Of a stretch of 64,000 nucleotides of DNA, positions 30,578 to 61,954 are shown piece after piece. The stretch spans positions 144,501 to 208,500 of the forward strand of contig JAYKKM010000205.1 of the NCBI GenBank assembly GCA_035772405.1. Direction: 5' to 3'. A model generated the notes under the pieces. The model did not search any database. It was not told the DNA's origin and saw nothing but the letters and a program-made list of their open reading frames with translations. Made by a program: the position numbers and the translations under genes. Positions within the stretch are counted from its first letter, which is position 1; every line of letters begins with the position of its first letter. Source of the DNA: Chrysogorgia sp. JL179-B06. Lineage: Eukaryota > Cnidaria > Anthozoa > Scleralcyonacea > Chrysogorgiidae.

Positions 30578-30583
30578 CAGACA
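30578..30583. other. Polinton target site duplication, left
   Basis: CAGACA, repeated at 61,955-61,960. Six bp is the normal Polinton/Maverick duplication. The last A may be shared with the element's first base (AGTAGT). Confidence 0.85.
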
Positions 30584-31590
30584 GTAGTAATAATATATAT
30601 ATTATTATTATCAATGTGTTAGGGACTGGACTGAGCTCTAAGCCAATCAGAATCGAGTATGATTTGAATTGACCAATCAGAGCACAGTCCAGTCCCATAT
30701 TTCCAGGGGGGTGTCGTATTTTTAAGGTGTGGTCACCCTGTAAAGAGCGACCAGCCATCAAATCAGGGGGGATATGCACCTGGTCGTATACAAGAGGTTT
30801 TTTGTATAAAATTAGTCAAAAAGTGGTCGCGGTCAAGAGTATATATATCACTTGGGTCGTGTTGTTGTACGACCAGTTTTATAGTCGTCCCTGAGTTGAA
30901 CGACCAGAGAGATTGAAGGTCATTCAAGGTGAATAGTGTTAAGCAAGTACTGACGTCATTTGCTATATGGGGTTGAAAGCGGTGATGAACCAGGAACAGG
31001 ATGTTTAGTTGTAGAATTTAGTGTTCTGACCAACTGAAGATCAGTATGGAAAAGTTCACCGAGAAACCAAACATGTCTAAAATGACATCATTTTAACCAT
31101 GTTTGGTTTCTTGGTAAACTTATCCCTACTGATCATCAATTAATCGGAACACGAAATTCTACGACTAAACTTCCTATTCCTGGTCCATCACCGCTTTCAA
31201 CACTCCATATAGCATCCGTGCCAGCACTTAGTCAAATCATCATCCACACTGTGATATATATACTGACACACACCACGTTTTTGAAAAAAAATACAAAAAA
31301 TTCTATTATACATAACCATCATACCTCACCCGATGTGATGTTATACTTACGTGCACGTGCCATCCAAAAATACCATATTTTTATTTGAAGACTTGTAATG
31401 ATGTTTGAAAATAAAAATAAACAGTTTTGGACTGTCCTATTTTTATTTGGAAAGAGTAGTCATGTTTATTGAAATAAAAATAAGCATTTTGAATTAATCA
31501 TAGAAATTTCTGCCATGGAGCTCTTACCTCGCCGCCATCTTATGGCCGAATGACTGATATTCCTTAGTGACGGTATATTTAAAAAGGATC
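30584..31590 (+). repeat. Left terminal inverted repeat
   Basis: Matches the right TIR in reverse: the blocks around GACCAGCCATCAAATCAGG, the CATACCTCACCC block and GCCATGGAGCTCTTACCTCG occur in the same order. It is about 430 bp longer than the right copy, mostly from a MITE (about 30,946-31,229) and a duplicated AATAAAAATAA segment. Confidence 0.9.
30946..31229. mobile_element. MITE inserted in the left TIR
   Basis: TGCTATATGGGGTTGAAAGC (30,961) and its near complement ending at 31,214 form a palindrome with weaker outer pairing to about 30,946/31,229. Right-TIR sequence runs through without it, so it arrived after the Polinton. Confidence 0.8.
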
Positions 31591-34498: not shown

Positions 34499-34705
34499 TC
34501 TTTCCCTGCAACGTTTCGATAAATATTTTTAAGCAAAGTGTACTGCATTAAGTCAACAAAAAGATTAAAAAGATTTACATGTATAATCGTCGGAGCGCGT
34601 CTTATAATATTGATTTTATCATTCAACCAATGAGAATACTCCGATATTTTATTAGGGAATTAAGTTCAACCAATCAGGATACCCCATTTTTTTTAACGTG
34701 TTTTT

Positions 34706-34711
34706 TATAAA
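34706..34711 (+). promoter_or_regulatory. TATA box for the H3-tail-like gene
   Basis: TATAAA 41 bp before the ATG at 34,747. Confidence 0.6.
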
Positions 34712-34746
34712 CGTTTGTTCCTAATTTCTTTAGTCACAATATCATT

Positions 34747-35901
34747 ATGGCTCGTGTGAAGCAGACTCATAAAAATTTGGAAAGTGGAAAATCAATTGCT
34801 CGGGTTGAAAGTAGGGGAAAAGATATTCCTAAAATGTTAAAACAACGTCGTCTAGAGCGACAAGAATATCGTAATAAGACTCTGGATATTTCAGATGGTG
34901 AATGCTGTCAAGGAAAAAAGAAAGTCAAACATTGTACAATTAAAGACAACATTGCACAGTCGCAATTAAATTTCGCTGTACCGATAGCTCAAGAACAGCC
35001 CAGTTACATTCTACATCCGCAAGCGAAGTATAACGCGTCGCCACAGCAAGCAAAGATACCGTCTTTACCCCAGCAAGTAAATTCACCTCTACTACCGCAA
35101 GCGAAGTATAACGCATCGCCACAGCAAGCAAAGATACCGTCTCTACCCCAGCAAGTAAATTCACCTCTACTACAGCAAGCGAAGTATAACGTGTCGTCGT
35201 GGCAAGCAAAGATACCATCTCTACCCCCGCAAGTAAACCACCTACCTCTACTATCGCAAGAACAGTATAATATACCCCTTCAAACACCGCAAGCAAAGTA
35301 TAATGCATCTCCTATTCCCCCGCAAACGATCTCACCGCCACGGCCCGAAGATGAATTAGATAATTACATATACGATATGCCTATTGATTTCTTTGGACAA
35401 ATCCCTATTCCTTCTCCTGCGAATTTAATACGAATGTGTGATGAAATGGTACCCGTTCAACAAGGAAAACAATTATTACAAATTGTGGATGAATTAGCAA
35501 ATGCTCTTTCCCCAACATTATCTCCTATTCCTCTTTCACCACCACAACTACCACAACCACCTAATTCACCCCAGCCATTATTTCCAGTGTGTGAAGAAGA
35601 GGAAGAAGAAGAAGAGGAAGACGACCGAGAAGTATTGAACGATCCACCATTGAAGAAAAGATGTTATAAACGTTCGTTAATATATATGAAACGTGAAAAA
35701 AAAGGCGATGAACATCGTGAAGAAAAACGAATGACAATCTATTCGAATTATGATCAAGATATTATTTGTACACAACGCGATAAATATCGTGAGTTAGAGG
35801 GTCTCTATATTGAAAAACTATATATAAATAAACAATATTTGCAATGGCGTTCTAGAAAATTTACGAGTGACCTTATGGAAAAAACGATATATAATGGATA
35901 A
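34747..35901 (+). CDS. Histone H3-tail mimic with Pro/Gln-rich repeats
   Basis: 384 residues. The N-terminus MARVKQTHKNLESGK lines up with the H3 tail after Met removal: A1, R2, K4, Q5, T6, G13 and K14 are identical. A basic stretch follows (to about residue 60), then three 26-residue repeats (QAKYNASPQQAKIPSLPQQ) at about 90-175, a Pro-rich linker, an eight-Glu acidic run (about 282-292) and a basic C-terminus (KKRCYKRSLIYMKREKKG). Such a layout fits a nuclear scaffold that presents an H3-like tail to readers or methyltransferases; this is inference. It sits in the left arm with its own TATA box, and the same element encodes a SET protein. The reading frame is intact. Confidence 0.75.
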   Translation: MARVKQTHKNLESGKSIARVESRGKDIPKMLKQRRLERQEYRNKTLDISDGECCQGKKKVKHCTIKDNIAQSQLNFAVPIAQEQPSYILHPQAKYNASPQQAKIPSLPQQVNSPLLPQAKYNASPQQAKIPSLPQQVNSPLLQQAKYNVSSWQAKIPSLPPQVNHLPLLSQEQYNIPLQTPQAKYNASPIPPQTISPPRPEDELDNYIYDMPIDFFGQIPIPSPANLIRMCDEMVPVQQGKQLLQIVDELANALSPTLSPIPLSPPQLPQPPNSPQPLFPVCEEEEEEEEEDDREVLNDPPLKKRCYKRSLIYMKREKKGDEHREEKRMTIYSNYDQDIICTQRDKYRELEGLYIEKLYINKQYLQWRSRKFTSDLMEKTIYNG

Positions 35902-40840: not shown

Positions 40841-41392
40841 TTATGAAGGTTGTTTTCTCTGCCAATAGTTATCACCATAGTCTGCAAAAATTTCTTCATG
40901 GGCTTTTATATGTTTTATACTTTCTAAATACATTTTTTTATTATTGGGATCGTAAACAAAATCGGAATTATTTTTATATATAGAACCGGTTTTCCCATTA
41001 TTTGCATAACGTGCTGCGGCGTGAGTTGTCAAATAAGCATCGATACAAGTGTTTGCATCGTTACAAATACTATATACAGCATTTGTGTTTTTACCATATT
41101 TACGATCCAATTTGGACTGTGTTGTTTTTTGACCCGTATAATAAGAAATATTACGATCGGGTTTAAAAGGTTTTTTCCAAGCAAATAATCCTTCACCCGC
41201 ATTTGGGATCGTTGATTTCTTGATACGTAAGTTATTTTGTTTTGCTAAATGAATCCAACATTTTTTTGTTTTTGCTGTTCGTTTACGACATCTTATTTTT
41301 TTTAAGGTTTTACTTCTACATTGAAGAACGTGACGTATACTTTGAGATTTATCATTGTGTCTTTTTTTTCGAGGTAACTTAACTCTTACCAT
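40841..41392 (-). CDS. SET-domain protein (putative lysine methyltransferase)
   Basis: 183 residues. A basic, Cys-containing N-terminus (CRSKTLKKIRCRKRTAKTKK, residues 26-45) is followed by the SET fold: IPNAGEGLFAWKKP (about 63-76; SAM-site glycines), YYTGQ (about 84), AARYANNG (about 127-134, in the place of the NHS/RF-NH substrate loop) and EEIFADYGDNYW (about 166-177), the conserved E-x-x-x-x-Y-G end. The length suits minimal viral SET proteins. Such enzymes methylate lysines, usually on histones. The NHS-type Asn is replaced by an AxYAN form, also seen in some viral and protist SETs. A poly-A tract sits right before the ATG. Frame intact. Confidence 0.8.
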   Translation of the reverse strand: MVRVKLPRKKRHNDKSQSIRHVLQCRSKTLKKIRCRKRTAKTKKCWIHLAKQNNLRIKKSTIPNAGEGLFAWKKPFKPDRNISYYTGQKTTQSKLDRKYGKNTNAVYSICNDANTCIDAYLTTHAAARYANNGKTGSIYKNNSDFVYDPNNKKMYLESIKHIKAHEEIFADYGDNYWQRKQPS

Positions 41393-41754: not shown

Positions 41755-41925
41755 ATGGGTTCTTTATCATCAAAAAAAATCCCTCCTATACTTACGTTGA
41801 CATGTATTAATATACAGGATTCATACGATGTTACTATTGATCGTGTTGATGGAGAAGACGAAAACATAAATAAAAATAAAACGGCGTGTTTTTCTTGTTT
41901 TAGAAAAAAAAAAGAAGATGAATGA
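41755..41925 (+). CDS. Predicted N-myristoylated mini-protein
   Basis: 56 residues beginning MGSLSSKKIPP: Gly2 with Ser6 and following lysines is the standard N-myristoyltransferase signal. An acidic middle (DRVDGEDEN) and a C-terminal CFSCFRKKK offer palmitoylation or membrane-anchoring residues. It overlaps the polymerase ATG by 8 bp. An A/T tract sits right before its ATG, as for other core genes. In viruses, small myristoylated proteins often act at membranes during entry or assembly; here the role is unknown. Confidence 0.6.
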   Translation: MGSLSSKKIPPILTLTCINIQDSYDVTIDRVDGEDENINKNKTACFSCFRKKKEDE

Positions 41926-44900
41926 TGATCAGAAAAAATTAAAATATAGTCAAAAAGATATAGATAAAATTGTAAGTTTATTTAATAAGAAAAAAGAAAG
42001 TAAGAAAAATGAAAAAATAGACGATTATTTTTCTGTTAATCATATAGAAACTATTAGTAGAGAAAAATTTAAAGTCACTGAACAACATTTTTCTTTGGAT
42101 GTTTCACGGGAAAAAACGGTTAATTTTATTAGTTTTATTCAATCGTTATCGTTGGTTTTTTCTTATTTAATTAACATTGCACGGGCAAATGTAAAAAGTG
42201 ATGATGATTATGTTAGATTTATCTTTAGTAATGCGCCAAAAAGTTTTTTCTCTACAGCCGTTTTACCCGTGAAAGACTTTGACGTTAAATATTTCTTAAA
42301 TATTATGGAAAAATTTATGCAGAGTAATAAAGAAATAATAGCTAATGGATGGAATAGTAAGGTAATAGTTCAAACTTTTCCCGCAGGAATAAGAACAAAT
42401 AAAAAAAAAATTAGTGTATTAAGGAAAAAAAGTATTTATAATAGTTTGAATAAGGGAAATGCTACAGATAAAGGCGGTGTGAAAAGTAATGTAAAAAAAT
42501 ATGGTCGTAAATTTCGCACGGGGGTATTTTATATTCTTAGCCATGTATTATTTCGTACAGTGAAAGATTGCTGTTTTGCTTTAGCAATATTAGTGGGTTT
42601 ATCATTTTTAAAACAAGACGCTAAATATTTTATAATGAAAAGAAAACCCAATAAACCCGTGGATGATTTATTTACGTGTGAAGAAATTCGAAATGTATAT
42701 CGAGAATGTGGGATACCCGAGGGTAATGTTGATGCCACACAGTTTGAGTTAGTATATAATAATTATTTAAAAAAACAGGGTGTTGATTTGTTAGTGTATG
42801 CTGACACTCATTCCGATAATATAATTTATGATTCACGAACTGATAGTGAGGGTAATCTTATTAAATTAACTAATGAAATTGTATGTTTATGGTTAAATAA
42901 TAATCATTACGATGTAGTCTTAAGCATAAAGGAATTTTCTAAACTTAACACCAGTTCTTTTTGTGTTAAATGTATGAGTCATTTTACACGCCATGAATAT
43001 ATCGATAATCACCTATGTACTACAAATAACTTAACTTGTTTACGATGTTATAAATATCCGAATAAGTGTAAAGATAAAAATAATAAACTTATTTGTAGCA
43101 GTTGTGATATAATTTTTTATGATGAAAATTGTTTTACAAATCATTTAACAAATAAAAATGTTAAACCCTCTCAAAGTAATTATGATCGTTTAACACCGTG
43201 TCAATATTTTTTTTATTGCAAAACCTGTAACAAAATTTGTCCTCGATTCTTTTTCATTTTTTCTAATAAAACAGTTAAACATGATTGTAGCAAACGATTT
43301 TGTTTTCATTGTGATAAATACATGAAACAACCTCATTTTTGTTATGTGAAACCCCTTTCACTTGAATATAACAAGAGGAAAGAAAGTGAACCCACTTTAT
43401 TTTTTTTTGATTTTGAAACAAAAGTAACCGAAACTAAATTGCTCGTACCGTTTTATTGTATCGTCCAAAAGGTATGTAAAAAATGTCAACATATTGAATT
43501 TAAAAAAACAAAAATATTTGAAAAAAAGGATCAAGAAATTATCGATAATACTATTGAAAAAGTTAGTTGTTGTGGGAATAGACAATTTATTTTTGATAAC
43601 AATGTTATTGAAACTTTATGTGAATTTATGTTTGAACAAACAAATTCCGTTTGGATAGCTCATAACGGGGGTAGATTTGATACTATTTTTATTTTAAAAT
43701 ATCTTTTAGAAATAAAACAGATAATGCCGAATACTATAATGAACGGTACTAAAATAATGAGTTTAATAATTAAAGAACAAAATATTAGAATCCTCGATAG
43801 TTATTTGTTTTTTAGTATGAAATTAGCGGATATTCCAAAAGCAATGGATCTTCAAGGGGAATGTAAGGGATTTCATCCTTATGAATTTTACGATTTAACT
43901 TATGAGGGTGAAATTGTAGATCGGAAATTTTTTGATACGAAACATATGAATACAGCAACACTTAATGAATTTGAAAAATGGTATTTAGAAAAAAAGAAAG
44001 AGAAATATATATTTCGTAAAGAGATTTATTATTATTGTTGTAGTGATGTAGATATTTTAAGAAAGGGATGTGTTAAATTTTCTACAATGATCGGCACCAT
44101 AGGTCATATCACCCCCTTTTATGCAAAGAATTGTATTACGATTGCTAGTTTAGCTTTGAAAGTGTATAGACTTAATTTTTAAAAAAAACATTGTGTAGGA
44201 ATTATTCCTGCTTCGGGGTATAGGGGGGGTGTAAAACAGAGTTTAATTGCTATTGATTGGTTAGATGAAATTAATCGAGAATTAGGAGGAAATTTAGAAT
44301 ATATCTGTTCACAAAATGGGGAGAAAAAAATTCTAGGCCGTTTTGTCGATGGTTTTTATAATGAAACGATATATCAATTTCATGGGTGTTTTTATCACGG
44401 ATGTCCCAAATGTTTTGACCCCTATGCATTAAACGTTCTTACAAACGAAAAATTTAGTAATTTATATGCAAATACGCAACGTTTTTCTTGGACAATAAAA
44501 AATGCCGGTTACAAATTAATCGAGATGTGGGAATGTGATTATTTAGAAGAAAAAAAATATACACAGAAACAATTAATTGAAAAGAAAAGAAAATTTTATC
44601 CGTTTACTCCTTTAACACCACGTGACGCATTATATGGGGGACGAACTTCCCCCGTATGTTTATTTAAAGAAACAAAACCCAACGAACGAATAAGTTACGT
44701 AGATTTTACATCGCTATACCCTCATGTACAAAAAAATTATGATTTTCCTGTGGGTCATCCTACTATTTTACTGGGCGAGGATTGTAATAAAATAAAAATC
44801 AAGGACATATTTGGTTTAGTAAAATGTTGTATTTCACCTCCTCGAAATATTTACTTTCCTGTTTTACCTGTTAGAATAGATGGGAAATTATTATTTCCAT

Positions 44901-45970
44901 TATGTTATAAATGTGCTGTGGATAAATGTAATAAATGTGAACATAATGAAAGCGATCGATACTTGACGGGTACTTGGACTAGTGTTGAGATTAATGTTGC
45001 TATAGATAAGGGATATAAAATAATTGCTCTTTACGAAATATATCATTTTGAACGCAAAGAAAAAATCTTTTCACAATACGTAAATCAATTTTTAAAAATC
45101 AAACAAGAATCTTCAGGAATTCCTACGGATTGTTTGAACGCAGATGGAAGTAAAAATGATGATAAAATTAAACAGTATTGTAATGATTATTTAAAAAATG
45201 AAAATGTTTTTTTAGATAAAGACAAAATAGAGAAAAATCCCGGATTAAGAACTATTGCAAAAACATTTTTAAATTCGTTATGGGGAAAATTTGCTCAAAA
45301 CGAAAATAATACACAAGTGTGTTTTTTAAAAGATTATGAAGAATTATTAAATATTGCCAATGATAAAAGTAAAAAATTAACATCGATGGAATTTATAAAC
45401 GAAACATTATTACGTTGTACATATGAAAAAATTGATGATGCAACAACCCCTCTAAAAACGGGAAATGTAATCATTGCATGTTTTGTTACTGCATATGCAC
45501 GTTTGAAATTATACGAGTTACTCGTTAAATTAGACGATCGCGTTTTATATTTTGATACAGATTCTGTTATTTATATATCTGATGAAAATAATTATACTGA
45601 TGTTAAAACGGGAAATTATTTAGGAGATTTAACGAATGAATTAAATGAAAATGAATGGATAACAAATTTTTGTTCAACGGGTCCAAAATGTTACGCGTAT
45701 ATAACTAATTTAAATCAGGAATATATTCATGTGAAAGGTTTTACTTTAAAAAATGAAACAATAAAAGAAAAATTGAATTTTTTATCCTTGACACAATGTG
45801 TTAAAAATCAAGATCAGATCATCGAAATTAAATATCACAATAAAATATGTAAAGATAAACTTAATCATATTTTTATTGAGGATGAAATAAAAAAATTTTC
45901 ATTTACATTTAATAAACGTGTTGTTAAAAATAATTTTAATACGATTCCGTTTGGATTTTTAGATAACTGA
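41918..45970 (+). pseudogene. POLB: Protein-primed family B DNA polymerase, one in-frame stop
   Basis: 1,350 codons in one frame, with a TAA at 44,180-44,182 (codon 755). Order: basic N-terminus; Cys-pair region (about 350-490, CVKC, CLRC, CSSC, CKTC); exonuclease ExoI DFET (about 498), ExoII NGGRFD (about 583), ExoIII YYCCSDVD (about 705); then after the stop PolA DFTSLYP (about 929), PolB NSLWGKF (about 1118) and PolC FDTDS (about 1213). This is the pPolB of Polintons and adenoviruses, which replicates linear DNA from a protein primer. The ATG overlaps the preceding mini-gene. Apart from the stop all catalytic residues are present. Confidence 0.93.
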
Positions 45971-45971
45971 A

Positions 45972-46650
45972 ATGAACAATGTTTCATTACCATTTCAACA
46001 CCCTTTTATGTTAACGTTATGCGGTCCTAGTCAAAGTGGGAAAACATATTGGGTATTACAATTATTGAAAAATATTAACATTATGATTACACCAGCAATT
46101 GTTAAAATGGTTTATTTATATTCAATTTATCAACCTCTGTACGCTGAAATGGAAAAAGTTCTTGCGGAAAAAAACAGATATTAGTGTTGAATTTATTGAT
46201 TGTCAAAAGGGTATTCCCCGCATTACTGATATACAAACGAATACCCGTGAAAATACGTTAATAATATTAGATGATCTCATGTTAGTTGCAACATCATCAA
46301 AAGAAAATCTTGAAAGAATAGATAATATTGCAACTCAAGATGTCCATCATCGTAATATTAGTGTTATTTTTACATGTCAAAATTTAACATATGGTAATGG
46401 TAAATTGCGAAATTTACGTGTCAATAGTCAATATTATGTTATGTTTAAAAATTTAAGCGATTATAATAATATGTATACGATATGTGATAATAAAAAAATT
46501 AATAGAAATAGATTTAATAAAGTATTAAGTGAAATTAATGAGAAACCCTATGGTTATTTGGTATTTGATAATTGTAGAAAAGGGTATGAAAATTGTAGAA
46601 TTAGAACCAATGTATTTCCACATGAATCAACGATAATCTATGATTTGTAA
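45972..46650 (+). pseudogene. ATP: Genome packaging ATPase (FtsK/HerA, A32-like), frameshifted
   Basis: ATG directly after the polymerase stop. Walker A GPSQSGKT at residues 18-25; the frame then breaks in an A7 run near 46,168 and continues in another frame with Walker B TLIILDDLM and the sensor-like FTCQNL. Total length about 225 codons, normal for a Polinton ATPase, which pumps the genome into capsids. The break lies between the two Walker motifs, so as written no full ATPase would be made. Confidence 0.88.
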
Positions 46651-46777: not shown

Positions 46778-47023
46778 ATGGCAAGAAGAAGATATAGAAG
46801 CAGGAGGGTCTCTAGAAAAAAGAAACAAAAAGGGGGTAGTGCTCTAGATATTTTTGGACCTTTGGGATCGTTAGTTGGAAATCAATTGGGAATTGGTATT
46901 CGAAAAAGAAAAAGAAAAAGAAAACAAAAAGGGGGTGCTCGAGGTTCTAATTTTGTCAATATGTTGTTTGGAGGGGGTATTCGCAAAAGAAAACAAAAAG
47001 GAGGGTATTGGAGTCTCTGGTAA
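46778..47023 (+). CDS. pX/mu-like basic core protein precursor with three KGG sites
   Basis: 81 residues from the only ATG, which follows a T/A tract. Layout: basic MARRRYRSRRVSRKKKQKGG, a hydrophobic segment (LDIFGPLGSLVGNQLGIG), basic KRKRKRKQKGG, a short hydrophobic piece, KRKQKGG and an aromatic tail. Adenovirus pX has the same basic-GG-hydrophobic build and is cleaved after GG. With the protease encoded next door this is probably a DNA-condensing virion peptide precursor. Similar proteins are at 50,477, 59,405 and 40,555. Confidence 0.7.
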   Translation: MARRRYRSRRVSRKKKQKGGSALDIFGPLGSLVGNQLGIGIRKRKRKRKQKGGARGSNFVNMLFGGGIRKRKQKGGYWSLW

Positions 47024-47143: not shown

Positions 47144-47755
47144 TTAAAAATTGGCATTATTAAAACTACAACATGACTGATTGTTATTACTCTTACAATT
47201 TTTTTTACATTTTTTATTATATATTCCTACGAGTACACGACCTAAAATTGTTTCTATTTTCTTTTTTAATTTAATATCGTTTTTTAGTTTAATACGTTCA
47301 TTTTTAAATATTTTTTGTTTATTATTATTTTCGATTTCATTACGACATTGATTGTATAAATATAATAAACTCCAATTTCCACACACTGCAGTATTTTTGG
47401 ATTGTAATTGTTTACTTTGAATATATTGAAATGTTAGTCCTTTTTTTACACTATAATCATACCAATATTCACGTTTATAAAACGAGACATCTTTTGCAAA
47501 ACTATCAAAAAAATTCATATGTTTTTCTTTATCCACCCATATAGCAATCCAATGTTGACCGTTTTGATCTGCTTCATCCGTATTCCAAATCCAACACGAG
47601 GGATAATAAATTTTTTTAGGAAAAATATTTGCAGGAAATGTACCCAAATAATATTTATTTAAAAACTTATTTATTTTTGAAATTTTATTAATCTCGTTCG
47701 TAAATAAAAATTGGGTTAAAAAACAATGTAAATTCATTGATTTTTGCGTCGCCAT
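47144..47755 (-). CDS. PRO: Adenain-like cysteine protease
   Basis: 203 residues. His68 in GQHWIAIWV, Asp84 in FFDSF and Cys125 in TAVCGNWSLLYLY give the C5/Ulp1 order His-Asp-Cys with spacings close to adenovirus protease (His54, Glu71, Cys122); Gln115 or Gln118 could form the oxyanion hole. It would mature capsid and core proteins, fitting the GG sites seen elsewhere in the element. The start overlaps the upstream gene by 22 bp. Intact, unlike its neighbours. Confidence 0.88.
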   Translation of the reverse strand: MATQKSMNLHCFLTQFLFTNEINKISKINKFLNKYYLGTFPANIFPKKIYYPSCWIWNTDEADQNGQHWIAIWVDKEKHMNFFDSFAKDVSFYKREYWYDYSVKKGLTFQYIQSKQLQSKNTAVCGNWSLLYLYNQCRNEIENNNKQKIFKNERIKLKNDIKLKKKIETILGRVLVGIYNKKCKKNCKSNNNQSCCSFNNANF

Positions 47756-49130: not shown

Positions 49131-50464
49131 TTAAATGCTGTGTAATAATCTTGCAGGGGTATTTAATCCCACTCTAATTTCATTTCGAAATTCACCAACA
49201 AATATTAACGCACCTACAACTGTATTTTGAGAAAAATGAAAATCCACATTAACATTTCCCGAGGGTCTTATGGGTAATACTGCAAGATGAGAGTCTCTAT
49301 TATCTGTTAAATCAAATGCTAATATAGAATACCCGTTTATAAAGTCATTATAAGTCATAGGCATTTCTGAATAGTTGCGATTTAATACCGAACGTAATTT
49401 TGAGTAAGCTTCAGCATGATTTTCAATTCTCCCGACAACAGCGTTATTTACTGAAACTTCAACATTATCATAATTAGGCCAGTTAAACTCAAAAATATTA
49501 TGAGTATATGATCCGTTCCAATTTGCTAATGGAGAAAATACAATATATAAACGTGTAGGAACGCTACCATTAAACACATCGATTACTTGATGCGAATTTC
49601 GTCCTGCAGCTACTGATTCAGTAATACAACGATAATTGGTTGTATAATATAATGTTTCTTTATTATGGGTCACCATCCCTATATTAAGCGCATTTGATAA
49701 TTGTTTTTTTGGGTTTAAATACAGGAATTTTTATTTTAAAATCATCTAGGGTAATTATAGTAGCAGCAACGGGCATATCAGCATGATTGGCACCCATCAT
49801 TACAATTGTATTTAATGCACGCGTTAAACGTAATTCGACTTTATACGCTGTAGGAATATATATTTCAGCACCACCTTCGCTAAATAATGAACAATCAATC
49901 TCATCTATCAAATTCTGTGATTGATTTTGAAATGCAATTGTTTTTTGTCTCCCTCCTGCATTTACGACATTAGCATTATCAGTGAAACCCACGATATCGC
50001 TCATATGTTCGGCTGTATCTAAATATGCTAAATTAAGCTCTTTAGAATCTTTATATCCCGACGGTGTTTTGACGCATTATAAATTGTATCCATGATGCAA
50101 AATGTGCAAAATTATCTGATGGTGTAATTAAATTTTCATTTATTTTTAATTCTTTTGTTTTCCACATTGTACGAAGGGGTAATGTAATCATCGAAAACCC
50201 CGATGCTGCAGGTGCTATAACTCCAGCAGCATTTCTAATCGATACTCTAGCCATTATTTTAGCATCGCTTGTTTTCATTAATCCAACGGCGTTCCCATGT
50301 CTTGTAAACGTGTATACTGACGATTGATTATCGACAGGCGTTGCGATAATTTCAGTTTCACGACATTCCGTAAACGTATCATTATAGGATGATGAAGTAA
50401 AAAATTGTAAAGGCTCGCTAAATAATATGTCATTTTTTTCCACATCTTCAATTTTTTTACTCAT
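49131..50464 (-). pseudogene. MCP: Major capsid protein (hexon-like double jelly-roll), frameshifted
   Basis: Three consecutive frames (50,464-50,051; 50,004-49,684; 49,676-49,131) form one gene of about 440 codons. The C-terminal part has the signature order of Polinton/adintovirus capsids: NSHQVIDVFNGSVPTRLYIV, THNIFEFNWPNYDNVEVSV, YNDFINGYSILAFDLT and NVDFHFSQN. The N-terminal part shows VSIRNAAGVIAPAASGF and PLRTMWKTKEL. Breaks are at a GGG near 50,060 and an A7 run near 49,700. ATG follows AAATAAA. It would form the capsid shell; this copy cannot do so as assembled. Confidence 0.82.
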
Positions 50465-51384: not shown

Positions 51385-52342
51385 TATGTTGAATGTATTA
51401 AACAATCAATACTAAGCGTTCCTGAATCAAAAGGAACTAATTTTCCTGTAGTATCTTTAACTTTAATATGAATTTCTCTTATAATGTCTTTTTTAATTTT
51501 CTCAATGATTTTGGGGGACTATAATAAACTAATTGTCCATCCCCCCCACCACCTTGTCGATTCCATTGAATGGGTACTGTTGTTAACAATTCGGAACAAC
51601 TATCACCAACTAACCCCAGTTCTATTTCATCACAATATATAAACATTTTATTTAATCCGTCGGATACATCGGGTAAGTAATCAAAATGTTTAGAAAAAAG
51701 GGTTCGAGGTGTAGGGTTATCTTTTTTTATTTCAAACAAGAGAGGTACGATTTCAAGACCTTTTTCATTTTTTAAACCTAGCATAAAAGCTATTTTTTTT
51801 GAAAATAATATATTAATCTTTTGATTAAAAGAAGCATATTGAATACCCTTTTTTTCTACCGTAGTCTTGTTAGATAATCGAAATTCATTTACCTGTAACC
51901 CATCGGCTGCATTACTCGCATTTTCATATACCCAATACTCAATCTCAACATTAACATTAATAATTACTTTCCCATTTGATCCGATGGTAAAAATAATTTC
52001 AAATCCTTCTAAGATATTATTTAAAAATATAATTAATGAAGACAAATCATAAATTCCGTCGGGTATAATAAATTTATCCGATGTAAAAACGAACTCACTG
52101 TTTGCGTATACCGAATTATTATTTTCTTCAGGTATAAAATTCTTATAGGTTATGATAAATGAAAAAAAACATTCATCACCAACAATATTTTTAGTTGTTT
52201 GAGGATAACAAACTTGTAAAACTTCTAAAAAACATTCATTGTTCAAAGCATCAATGGGTTGTGCAATTTTCATTTCAAAATCATTAATCAAATTCTTTTG
52301 AAGTCCTCTTGATATTGAATTACTAGCAATGTGTAAATTCAT
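51384..52342 (-). pseudogene. mCP: Penton-like minor capsid protein (single jelly-roll), frame break
   Basis: About 320 codons. Polinton penton landmarks in order: IIPDGIYDLSSLIIFLNNIL, FSKKIAFMLGL, then MFIYCDEIELGLVGDS followed by LLTTVPI, and after a shift REIHIKVKD and GTLSIDCLIHST. The frame changes at A AAA AAG near 51,488, an exact -1 slippery heptamer, and the second frame runs to a TAA overlapping the next ATG. The ATG overlaps the integrase stop (ATGA). It would cap capsid vertices. Confidence 0.78.
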
Positions 52343-53255
52343 TTTTTTTTTAAAACTTGTAATTCAGCACGATAAAAAATTCCTTTAATTTCTTCACGTT
52401 GTTCGTCTTCTAATTGATATGTAACGGGATCGGTGATAAATACTTTTTTAATAAAAAATATCTCATTTGTCCATCGTCGAAGACTGCTTTTTTCAAAAAT
52501 ATTATTTTTTACTCTCGCAATACGTACACGAGTACCTTCACGTATCAGATCTTGAGTGGGAATAGGATAATTTATATGGTCACGTACTATTTTATTTTTT
52601 ACTTTACGTATTTTTCCTTTTTTTTCTTCGCGATAAATTTCAAAAGGTGTTGCACCAGCTAATGCTTTATGTGGGGAATTATTATAACGATTAACAATAA
52701 GGGGTAAATACTGAATATAGTCAAATTCTCCAGTCATTGTTAAAACACGACGAACCATTGTTTTCAAAGTTCCAATTACACGTTCCACATGGGATGCTTT
52801 TATTTCTCTATTATACGTATGAAATACTTCAAAATTATATTTTTTACTTAATTTCGTACGTATATCTTGAAATTCTGTTCCTTCATCACTTTGAATTTTA
52901 AGAGGGGCTATTCCTTCTTCAATAAGAATACTTTCAAATTTATTTTTAACATTATTAGACGTTTTCTTTTTTATTAATTTTACCCAACAAAATCTTGAAA
53001 AAATATCAATACACACCAACCAATAACGATATTGATTATTATATCGGGCTAAATCTTTATTTTCAGCTAAATCAATTTCCCATTGTTCATTATTTTTATT
53101 AACAGCATATTTCAAACGTCTATATATTTTTTTTTACTACTACTATGTAATCTATAATTAGAATAATCCTCATCAGTTAATGTCTCTCCTTTTAATAATC
53201 TTGAAGCTTTTTCAATAAAGTCAGCAGAAAATTTAGTTTTTTTCTTTTTACTCAT
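52339..53255 (-). pseudogene. INT: Polinton integrase (rve, DDE), frame break
   Basis: Starts at ATG 53,255 with a lysine-rich N-terminus (ADFIEKASRLLKGETLTDED) and shifts frame in an A9 run near 53,130. Then the RNase-H core: WEIDLAEN (first Asp), LVCIDIFSRFCWVKLI, QSDEGTEF (second Asp), SHVERVIGTLK (Glu). The D-x33-E spacing is the Polinton/retroviral type. C-terminal PHKALAGATPFEIYR and a basic SH3-like part complete it. It catalyses insertion with the 6-bp duplication. Apart from the shift all catalytic residues are present. Confidence 0.9.
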
Positions 53256-57735: not shown

Positions 57736-58164
57736 ATGATGTCGAATTCACATGTACAGTATCGTGATTGTGATGAACATACCGGTAGAAGGTATCAAAG
57801 AATAATTGCTGATGACTTTAACCCCTACAGAATTGATGATGCAAGTAACTATTATCCAAGTCGTTTTCTTGCCAAAGAATTACACCACTTTACCTATGTT
57901 GTAAAGAAATGTCAACCTACGGTACTATGCGAATGTATTGAAGATATATCCTATGAAGATATACCCTCAACGCCTCAAACATATTATCTAGTTCTGGCAG
58001 TTAAAAAGAAACATGAATATGAAAATGATGAATGGAATTGTTCATGTCTGGGTGAAAACATAACAACAATTGTTGACTATGATGCTTCTGATCTTTTACA
58101 AAAAGAAATTAAACTAATAATAGATTCTAATAATTTCATGAAAGCTGTAGCATATACTCAATAA
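57736..58164 (+). CDS. Arm paralogous family member (142 aa)
   Basis: Family pattern with an N-terminal extension: LAKELHHFTYVVKKCQPTVL, then YYLVLAVKK, then DYDASDLLQKEIKLI. An ATG at 57,717 in another frame stops after three codons, so the ATG at 57,736 (or the adjoining 57,739) is used. Longest full member; an acidic Cys-containing insert (ECIEDISYED) sits after the Cys motif. Function unknown. Confidence 0.62.
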   Translation: MMSNSHVQYRDCDEHTGRRYQRIIADDFNPYRIDDASNYYPSRFLAKELHHFTYVVKKCQPTVLCECIEDISYEDIPSTPQTYYLVLAVKKKHEYENDEWNCSCLGENITTIVDYDASDLLQKEIKLIIDSNNFMKAVAYTQ

Positions 58165-58200
58165 AAACTTTTTTTTAAAAAAATTCGTGTTTTTTTATTT

Positions 58201-58209
58201 ATATATAAG
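58201..58209 (+). promoter_or_regulatory. TATA box for the 58,244 gene
   Basis: ATATATAAG followed by ATTA, 35-43 bp before the ATG; the same ATATATAAGATTA block precedes the paralog at 59,711. Confidence 0.6.
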
Positions 58210-58243
58210 ATTACATATTTGATTTAATCATAGTGATAACAAG

Positions 58244-58591
58244 ATGAATCAAGAACAAGATCTCGTGACCTGTGTCAATTATAGGGGTGTAGCATATTAT
58301 GACTATACTCCTCGTTATTATTCATGTCATTTTCTTCAAAAACATTTTCCTAACTATACATATTTGGTAGAGGATTGTAAACCCGCTATACTATGTAAAG
58401 AATGTAATCCCCCATTTTGTTCTCCACCTCAAGTCTACGAACTAACTCTGAAAATTATTAAACAGGGATTACTTGAAGAGAAGGGAATAACCCTAAAAAC
58501 AATTCTTGAAACTAAAAGTGATCATCTCGTGTATAAAACAATTAAACTAATAAATGGTAACTCGATAATTCCACAACAAATTAATTTGTAA
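58244..58591 (+). CDS. Arm paralogous family member (115 aa)
   Basis: YYSCHFLQKHFPNYTYLVED, then CKPAILCKECNPPFC (extra Cys), YELTLKIIKQG and SDHLVYKTIKLINGNSIIP. Shares VEDCKP and the end NxxIIP with the 59,711 gene, its closest relative here, and the promoter block. Intact; function unknown. Confidence 0.65.
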   Translation: MNQEQDLVTCVNYRGVAYYDYTPRYYSCHFLQKHFPNYTYLVEDCKPAILCKECNPPFCSPPQVYELTLKIIKQGLLEEKGITLKTILETKSDHLVYKTIKLINGNSIIPQQINL

Positions 58592-58680
58592 ACATATTTA
58601 TTTTTCTTGTAATAAAATTTTTACACAAAAATAAAAACTCGATATTCTGTTTCTAACTTTCAAGGTTTATTTTAAAAACA

Positions 58681-59049
58681 TTACAACGAATGAAATATTT
58701 GTTTCCCTCTACCCCTATGGTCAATGAAATTGTAGGGTTTAATGTTTAATATAGGTGTTTGAGTTTTTGCTAATTTTACATTATCATTATTAATATTTAT
58801 ATATTTTCCCTTCAATGATAATAAGAGGTTCTGTAAATTTTCCTCCGGAGCTCCAAACGAGTCTACTAGCATCAATTTGAAATATCGAGGTCCTTGCCAA
58901 TCTTTCAGATATAAATAATATCCATATCTTAACAACGAGGGAATCACAGGTTCATAATTTACTAATTGTATGGGTTGAGCACGATAATAAAATGTAAGAT
59001 AATCATGAGATTCACATTCTCCAAAATCAATCATTGAACGCAACCACAT
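58681..59049 (-). CDS. Unrecognised 122-residue protein
   Basis: Start taken at ATG 59,049 because the TATATAAAC promoter box lies at 59,087-59,100, inside the longer open frame that begins at 59,130. Contains NYEPVIPSLLRYGYYLYLKD, GPRYFKLMLVDSFG and ENLQNLLLSLKG; block order suggests relation to the 56,464 gene. No known domain. Confidence 0.55.
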   Translation of the reverse strand: MWLRSMIDFGECESHDYLTFYYRAQPIQLVNYEPVIPSLLRYGYYLYLKDWQGPRYFKLMLVDSFGAPEENLQNLLLSLKGKYININNDNVKLAKTQTPILNIKPYNFIDHRGRGKQIFHSL

Positions 59050-59086
59050 GTTTGAAAAAATAATAGAAAAAATATATTTGATACCC

Positions 59087-59100
59087 TGTTTATATAGTTT
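59087..59100 (-). promoter_or_regulatory. TATA box for the 59,049 gene
   Basis: AAACTATATAAACA on minus, 40-50 bp before the ATG chosen. Confidence 0.6.
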
Positions 59101-59172
59101 TGCAAAAAATCTATAAAAGTAGGTTGTCAAACTATAAAATTTTCACAAAACGTTCAAAAAAATATTGTCAAG

Positions 59173-59376
59173 ATGGTCTATTGCAGTTTCTGTTGTTGTG
59201 AAGTGAATTCCTTCTATCATTTTTTCATGCATTACAGATGTAAAGAATGCTTTGTAAACCATCATTATTGTTATCCTTGTAAACAGAATTACTCACGACT
59301 TATCTATAGTAGAATAGTTGATCTATGTGAATGTGATGATAGAATACAAAGATGGAAAAAAACTTATTTGAATTAA
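59173..59376 (+). CDS. Zinc-ribbon-like mini-protein, 67 aa
   Basis: ATG at 59,173. Cys/His spacing: CSFCCC, HYRCKECFVNHHYCYPCKQN, CECDD; several CxxC pairs with His between them suggest two zinc sites, as in RING- or B-box-like mini-folds, but the pattern is not a textbook match. Divergent from the 59,049 gene. Role unknown. Confidence 0.55.
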   Translation: MVYCSFCCCEVNSFYHFFMHYRCKECFVNHHYCYPCKQNYSRLIYSRIVDLCECDDRIQRWKKTYLN

Positions 59377-59404
59377 TAAAATTTTTGTATATTAAATACA
59401 TTGT

Positions 59405-59554
59405 CTACCATTTCCAAAATTCATAAAACTTATGATTATAATTCGGATGATCTTTTTTCCATCCTCCTTTTTGAATTTTTTTAGAACGTCGTCGTTTTCG
59501 TATTCGTTTTTTTATTTTCGCTTTTTTTATACATCTCCTACTCCTACACTTCAT
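59405..59554 (-). CDS. pX/mu-like basic protein, 49 aa
   Basis: ATG at 59,554 behind an A7 tract. Basic part with RIRKRRRSKKIQKGGW, then an aromatic tail. The KIQKGG site is identical to that of the 50,477 protein, pointing to cleavage by the same protease; the hydrophobic tail is replaced by a His/aromatic one. Probably a virion DNA-binding peptide. It is in the right arm, away from the core cluster. Confidence 0.6.
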   Translation of the reverse strand: MKCRSRRCIKKAKIKKRIRKRRRSKKIQKGGWKKDHPNYNHKFYEFWKW

Positions 59555-59666
59555 TTTTTTTATGTTAACTGAAGTACGACAAGCAATGGTTTAAAAAAAA
59601 AAAGAAAAAAACCATCTATTTATACTGTTCTGTTTTTTGATTTTTTTTTAATATCTTTTTCTGAGA

Positions 59667-59680
59667 CATATATAAGATTA
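59667..59680 (+). promoter_or_regulatory. TATA box for the 59,711 gene
   Basis: CATATATAAGATTA, about 35-44 bp before the ATG. Confidence 0.6.
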
Positions 59681-59710
59681 AACTAAAAAAACTTTATCAT
59701 TACTGAAACA

Positions 59711-60067
59711 ATGTCCGTATTACGTTATGTTAGTATATGTAGGAAAAGTATAACTTTTTTTGACTGCGCCACAGATACTGTTCAGTGCTATTTATCATGT
59801 GAATCTCTTCTTAAAGAATATCCTGAATATATATATTTTGTAGAGGATTGCAAACCTGTTACAATAATTGAAACAAAACAATGTTCTGTAATAAAAAAAA
59901 ATGGTGTGAAACAACACCCGTATGAAGTAACCCTGAAAGTTATCAATCATGGAGAATCTGGAAAAACACTAAAAATATTATCAGAGGAAGATGTTCCTCA
60001 TCTTTTACATAAAAATGTTAAGTTTATAAAAAATGACAAAGACATAATAATTCCTTCTCTTGTATAA
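59711..60067 (+). CDS. Arm paralogous family member (118 aa)
   Basis: LLKEYPEYIYFVEDCKPVTI, YEVTLKVINHG, then EEDVPHLLHKNVKFIKND and IIPSLV. It best shows the family's pattern: an L-x3-yPxYxYxVxxCkP strand-loop, a y-x-l-t-L-k-v strand, an acidic D-x-x-H-L-L turn and a final strand. Other members: 34,190, 56,108, 57,736, 58,244 and 60,723. Size and lack of signal or membrane parts suggest a small cytosolic or nuclear factor. I know no matching family. Confidence 0.65.
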   Translation: MSVLRYVSICRKSITFFDCATDTVQCYLSCESLLKEYPEYIYFVEDCKPVTIIETKQCSVIKKNGVKQHPYEVTLKVINHGESGKTLKILSEEDVPHLLHKNVKFIKNDKDIIIPSLV

Positions 60068-61383: not shown

Positions 61384-61954
61384 TTAAAAAATACCGTAAC
61401 TAAAGAATATCAGTCATTCGGCCATAAGATGGCGTCGAGGTAAGAGCTCCATGGCGGAAATTTCTATGATTAATTCTATAAACCCAAATTTGATTATTTT
61501 TATTTCAACATCGTACAACTCTTCCAATAAAAATAATATGGACGTTTTTTTGGATGACACGTATAAATCACATTGGGTGAGGTATGATGTTCGTTTATAA
61601 AGTTTTTTTTTTGAATTTTAAAAATATCTATCTCATGAAATTGACTACGATCACCTTGATTGACCTTCTCTCTCTCTGGTTGTCAAACTTAAGGATAAAC
61701 CAAAAACTGGTCGTACAACAACACCAGGTTTCATGAGATAAATAATATCAAAATTCACAAAAAACCTCTTGTATACGACCAGGTGCATATCCCCCCTGAT
61801 TTGATGGCTGGTCGTTCTTTACAGGGTGACCACACCTTAAAAATACGACACCCTCCTGGAAATATGGGACTGGACTGTGCTCTGATTGGTCAATTCAAAT
61901 CATAACGAGATTGATTGATAACATAATAATAATAATATATATATTATTACTACT
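61384..61954 (-). repeat. Right terminal inverted repeat
   Basis: 571 bp, reverse complement of the left TIR with several substitutions and without its MITE. Ends ATTATTACTACT, followed by the CAGACA duplication. Confidence 0.9.

Follow-up and report, generated by a model that had tools for sequence, protein, structure and literature searches.

A histone H3-like N-terminus on a Polinton protein of Chrysogorgia sp. JL179-B06

The Polinton and its H3-like open reading frame

Here we describe an open reading frame (ORF) at 34747..35901 (plus strand) in a 64,000-nucleotide window of the Chrysogorgia sp. JL179-B06 assembly (contig JAYKKM010000205.1, positions 144,501 to 208,500; all coordinates below are those of this window). 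The Polinton in which the ORF resides spans about 31.4 kb. The element ends at 30583 and 61954, where the outer parts of its terminal inverted repeats lie at 30583..30805 (plus strand) and 61757..61954 (minus strand), each flanked by the 5-bp target duplication CAGAC; the Polinton target duplication is usually 6 bp. A DNA polymerase B (PolB) region at 41918..45970 (plus strand) comprises two ORFs (41918-44182 and 44525-45970), the second of which matches PF03175 at E 2.7e-32 and the first of which has no match. A retroviral-type integrase is encoded at 52339..53115 (minus strand; PF00665, E 3.3e-8), which, with a PolB of the organellar and viral type, completes the PolB and rve integrase pair of a Polinton/Maverick. 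An earlier sequence-only reading had assigned the ORF to a Polinton, and the inverted ends, PolB and integrase agree with this.

Other element genes are less clearly defined. An adenain-like protease at 47144..47755 (minus strand) matches PF00770 at E 5.4e-4, scoring 20.1 bits, just short of the 21.3 cut-off. The likely capsid region ORFs at 49131-49676 and 50051-50464, the two that were tried, gave weak Pfam matches below cut-off, and the Pfam search of the ORF at 46099-46650 gave no match. An 81-aa basic ORF at 46778-47023 (plus strand), reading MARRRYRSRRVSRKKKQKGG, contains repeated KQKGG units, and we would guess at a DNA-condensing core protein. Three small ORFs (142, 115, and 118 aa) within 57736-60067 are alike by eye and perhaps represent a duplicated element gene. 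The Polinton load of this genome is large, with 150 SET matches when the best 150 of 1135 candidates were scored, and all SET matches listed are 97-100% identical.

The 384-aa product of 34747..35901 begins MARVKQTHKNLESGK, and its N-terminal reading is MARVKQTHKNLESGKSIAR. Residues 1-14 after Met (ARVKQTHKNLESGK), encoded at 34750..34791 (plus strand), are identical to histone H3 at seven of 14 positions. Translation and comparison bear out each of the identities claimed earlier, namely A1, R2, K4, Q5, T6, G13, and K14; A1, R2, K4, Q5, and T6, plus G13 and K14, make up a short stretch identical to a functional H3 tail site, as in viral mimics. The likeness stops after residue 14, with none of the next four residues matching H3. 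The remainder contains Pro/Gln repeats, an MPIDFFGQIP block, an acid run, and a basic end, in keeping with its earlier description as unlike a histone, and the Pfam search of the protein found no family at E<=0.1. The protein is not a histone H3. An AlphaFold model built with 12 sequences has a mean pLDDT of 40, which is compatible with disorder and is not proof of it. The C-terminus of the window copy reads MEKTIYNG (35880-35901); most listed matches reach only residue 380, although their open frames are longer, and longer copies of the ORF occur in the same genome.

When residues were resampled from the first 60 of the ORF itself, seven or more H3 identities out of 14 arose in 3e-5 of draws, and the probability of ARxKQT from composition alone is 1.6e-6. 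Among the 49 element ORFs of at least 60 aa, the runner-up H3 score was 4/14, reached by the SET gene described below and the 81-aa basic ORF. One find chosen among many windows could still be lucky; the copies, by their conservation, provide stronger evidence. A KacXXR-type mimic at K14xxR was rejected, as the ORF reads K14-S-I-A-R18 and is one residue too long.

Conservation of the start among genomic copies

The copy search covered the assembly that contains the window (781 Mb, 522 contigs). Scoring the best candidates gave at least 164 matches to the protein, some of which are two pieces of one copy. MARVKQTH[KR] was present in 66 of the 70 loci fetched via whole-protein matches (69 places, as L027 and L031 coincide); the four exceptions read TARVKQT, MARVKHT, MARVK followed by a stop, and MAHVKQT. 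After adding 40 ends, 104 of 110 were anchored and 87 of these read MARVKQT, with the other 17 comprising three types found twice and eleven found once. Positions 7, 8, 9, 10, 12, and 15 differ between subfamilies. Between L001 and L028, codons 2-8 (Met=1) carry three synonymous changes and no amino-acid change. G13-K14 is retained in most copies, with columns 13 and 14 constrained by the anchor.

We also sampled copies in a way that ignored the start, using as queries L099, a diverged copy, and L097, a very diverged one, with their first seven residues removed. Sixty ends (40 and 20) were hand-picked among the listed matches that begin near the query start. Of these, 35 read MARVKQT (in seven cases a frame shift follows or the anchor did not read the body), 8 read MARVKQV, 14 had other starts, and 3 had no start that was found. 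MVRVKQT and MACVKQT each occurred twice among the other starts, and the rest were single: MDRVKQT, MARAQQT, KHLTQQT, WLDVKQT, IARVKQT, MAHVKQT, MTCVKQT, MDRVKQV, MTRVKQV, and KSRVTQT. Clustering on residues 7 onward alone gave 18 representatives, or 15 after dropping three frame-shifted copies; in these three the start and the anchor lie in different frames, yet they read MARVKQT from their own ATG. Mean pairwise identity among the 15 in-frame representatives was 0.83 for residues 1-6 and 0.33 for residues 7-12, compared with 0.42 for residues 7-35 outside anchored columns and 0.57 for all of 7-35; with all 18 the corresponding values were 0.58, 0.35, 0.45, and 0.59. R2 and Q5 are invariant in the 15, and A1, V3, K4, and T6 score 0.66-0.87 versus 0.17-0.53 for residues 7-12. 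Position 3 is usually V and not T among copies, and synonymous variation occurs at all six codons of the hexamer. Within this one genome, the start motif thus appears to be conserved by selection. The expectation that related genes keep ARxKQT holds for most copies and fails in the 14 other starts and in a deep branch with V instead of T6; the wider core is A1-R2-x-K4-Q5.

A pattern search for MARxKQT in the same genome found 491 places versus 5 for the reversed control, and 100 of the 491 were listed. Position 3 was left free in this pattern, from which the MARTKQT, MARMKQT, and MARLKQT copies stem. Two of the seven MARTKQT places read are true H3 genes (L146 and L147); these read KAPRKTLATK, with T at the position of the Q19 that common H3 carries. 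Four pattern-search places (L141-L144) read MARTKQTKRSM. L142, whose hexamer is exactly the ARTKQT of H3, contains EYILDMPIDFFG, and its start runs on into EYILDMPIDFFGH, a block of the 34747..35901 family. Without its first seven residues, L142 scores E 5.5e-6 with the family profile, against 0.5 for the best of 600 shuffles, and judged by its sequence it is a diverged family member. The printed start of L143 is identical to that of L142, and L141 (0.27) and L144 (0.97) fail to match the profile. G13-K14 was rejected as a part of the mimic: since columns 13 and 14 are anchor-constrained and L142 lacks that spacing, we count the core only as A1-R2-x-K4-Q5(-T6).

In eight subfamily representatives (Met=1), pN/pS is 0.17 for residues 2-9, 0.52 for 2-15, 0.43 for 16-42, and 0.95 for 43-80, while residues 201-260 (0.15) and 301-380 (0.10) are at least as constrained as 2-9. 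Comparing the tail with the rest, residues 1-6 are better kept than 7-12, against which stand the equally constrained parts elsewhere and the pN/pS of 0.52 for 2-15. Given equal constraint in other parts of the protein, ARVKQT may belong to a larger interface unrelated to H3. Searches of 5.8 billion proteins gave no hit at E<=1 for the whole protein (3729 candidates) and none at E<=10 for residues 1-60 (5 candidates), and PolB and SET queries found no relative in viral_contigs. With no homologue found beyond its own genome, nothing shows convergence in independent lineages.

The H3-like tip in most related copies suggests histone imitation that would engage host chromatin proteins. Alternatively, the first 40 residues could serve the element itself as a conserved interaction or nucleic-acid-binding segment (in packaging, nuclear import, or replication), the H3 likeness being a coincidental basic start. 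Conserved columns past residue 6 and a repeated GK-x-I pattern (both partly anchor-constrained) would fit this, as would the second basic ORF of the element (46778-47023), which likewise begins MAR, and a large scan yields rare matches through luck. Against it, residues 1-6 are kept while 7-12 change and all six codons vary synonymously, a diverged homologue with T3 carries the exact H3 hexamer, and the theme recurs in SET relatives. We regard this alternative as possible, if somewhat improbable.

The adjoining SET gene

The same element encodes a SET-domain methyltransferase-like protein at 40841..41392 (minus strand), which starts MVRVKLPRKK and matches PF00856 at 26.6 bits, above the cut-off of 22.4. 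It has 39 relatives at E<=0.01, some of them from the octocoral Paramuricea clavata. The best folds for its model (pLDDT 64) are MLL1, SETD8, and SET7/9, with a TM-score of about 0.5 over the query. By sequence profile, EZH2 ranks first, followed by PRDM9, and KMT2A-D are also matched. Legionella LegAS4, likewise a SET enzyme carried by a parasite, is among both the profile and the fold matches. PBCV-1 vSET is a virus-carried SET enzyme, and to our knowledge neither it nor LegAS4 has an H3-like tail.

Taking the starts as given by the databases, with some members being fragments, 12 of 40 SET family members including the window copy begin M[AV]R[TVIS]K, and 28, again some of them fragments, lack an H3-like start. 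MARTKK or MARTKT opens ten of the 40 (P0003, P0004, P0006, P0009, P0010, P0029, P0031, P0034, P0036, and P0037). On a tree of 36 members, the start label needs six changes versus a mean of 8.9 in shuffles, and 10 of 500 label shuffles were as low. Among 20 SET regions beside ORF copies, 12 read MVR[VI]K, one reads IVRIK, four read otherwise in the frame found, and the remaining three yielded nothing. The DNA pattern of MARTK[KT]xPRR had three matches in viral_contigs; all three have Ser for R2 and 19-36 aa open, and we took them as chance.

These starts raise a second alternative, itself compatible with a mimic, in which the element's own SET protein would dock on the tail or use it as a substrate, methylating K4 of the ARxK tail on the ORF product and, in relatives, on the SET protein itself. 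The closest folds, the profile matches to PRDM9 and KMT2A-D, the ten MARTKK or MARTKT members, and the 12 adjoining MVR[VI]K regions are consistent with this. Against it, the best sequence match, EZH2, is an H3K27 enzyme, the start of the window's SET protein offers only VRVK, and 28 of 40 members have no such start; we consider it fairly unlikely. A bolder version, in which SET writer and N-terminal H3-tail substrate, joined in relatives by the H3-like tail of the writer itself, form a self-contained false H3K4 system with a Val3 immune to Thr3 phosphorylation, is doubtful. If true, such a system would draw the host's H3K4 machinery to the DNA of the element or keep silencing away.

The start codon and possible H3 mimicry

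Upstream of the ORF, a CCAAT box (34670..34674) and a TATA box (TATAAA, 34706..34711, 41 nt upstream of the ATG) form a putative core promoter on the plus strand, and CCAAT and TATAA occur in all 15 aligned copies, which were chosen by their start. An initiator-like TCACAA (34734..34739, plus strand) is exact in 8 of the 15. From this layout, transcription would be expected to start about 12 nt before ATG 34747, giving a leader of about 12 nt. Because CCAAT and TATA lie just upstream, ATG 34747 is probably the translation start, and the window copy has no further ATG within 100 nt upstream. An in-frame Met directly precedes the start (ATGATG) in 11 of 70 copies and lies two codons upstream in L095 and L096, as well as in L157 and L163 (2 of 48 ends tested); as a guess, the short leader may permit ribosomes to use the second ATG. 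The sequence-only reading had named a later start as fatal to its claim, and here the upstream layout favors ATG 34747 while the in-frame Met codons of some copies qualify it. That the protein begins elsewhere (at an upstream exon, an upstream Met, or a later Met), leaving the tail internal or absent, is very improbable given this layout, despite those Met codons and an acceptor-like ttctttag immediately 5' of the ATG.

On balance, we think it more likely than not that 34747..35901 encodes a Polinton accessory protein whose exposed N-terminus imitates the H3 tip and docks on H3K4-type chromatin proteins. The initiator Met, which is usually removed before Ala, would be cleaved to leave a free NH2-ARVKQT. 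This end could then fit into the binding pocket of a reader, writer, or eraser of the H3K4 type, with a PHD finger, a KMT2-type SET domain, and an LSD1-type demethylase as candidates. Val3, a conservative replacement for the Thr of H3, resembles it in shape but lacks its hydroxyl and would therefore escape phosphorylation. The protein body would link the factor so caught to DNA or proteins of the element, so that the factor is either recruited or withheld from host chromatin. A cellular parallel is the SNAG domain of the transcription factors SNAI1 and GFI1, an N-terminal H3-like peptide that enters LSD1, although it begins Pro-Arg-Ser.

Histone mimicry is known for a few viral proteins, according to PMC6972770. 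In the same paper, the C-terminal ARSK of influenza A (H3N2) NS1 mimics the H3K4 site; as proposed for the Polinton protein, a few viral residues stand in for the H3 tip, but in NS1 they are four at the C-terminus instead of six at the N-terminus. The KacXXR motif of hepatitis delta antigen, described there as mimicking H3 and H4 tails, is also a short viral imitation of a histone tail, though unlike the Polinton tail it is internal, acetylation-dependent, and bromodomain-directed. A precedent for such binding is described in PMC7060239, in which the free, H3-like N-terminus of PAF15 (PCNA-associated factor 15; VRTK) is read by the UHRF1 PHD finger like H3, with Val accepted at the first position (Kd 2.2 uM, versus 1.5 uM for H3). 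There, T4D, in the place of H3 T3, abolishes PHD binding, and K5A, in the place of H3 K4, has little effect; we count the latter against the mimic reading. PAF15 is a host protein and differs from the window ORF, which carries A1 and V3 and matches H3 at Q5-T6. We found no Polinton H3 mimic in the literature, within open-licence papers.

If true, the mimic would extend histone mimicry to Polintons, in a virus-like transposon with a probable free N-terminus and an adjoining SET gene. The natural variants V3/T3 and T6/V6 could be used to probe which residues matter.
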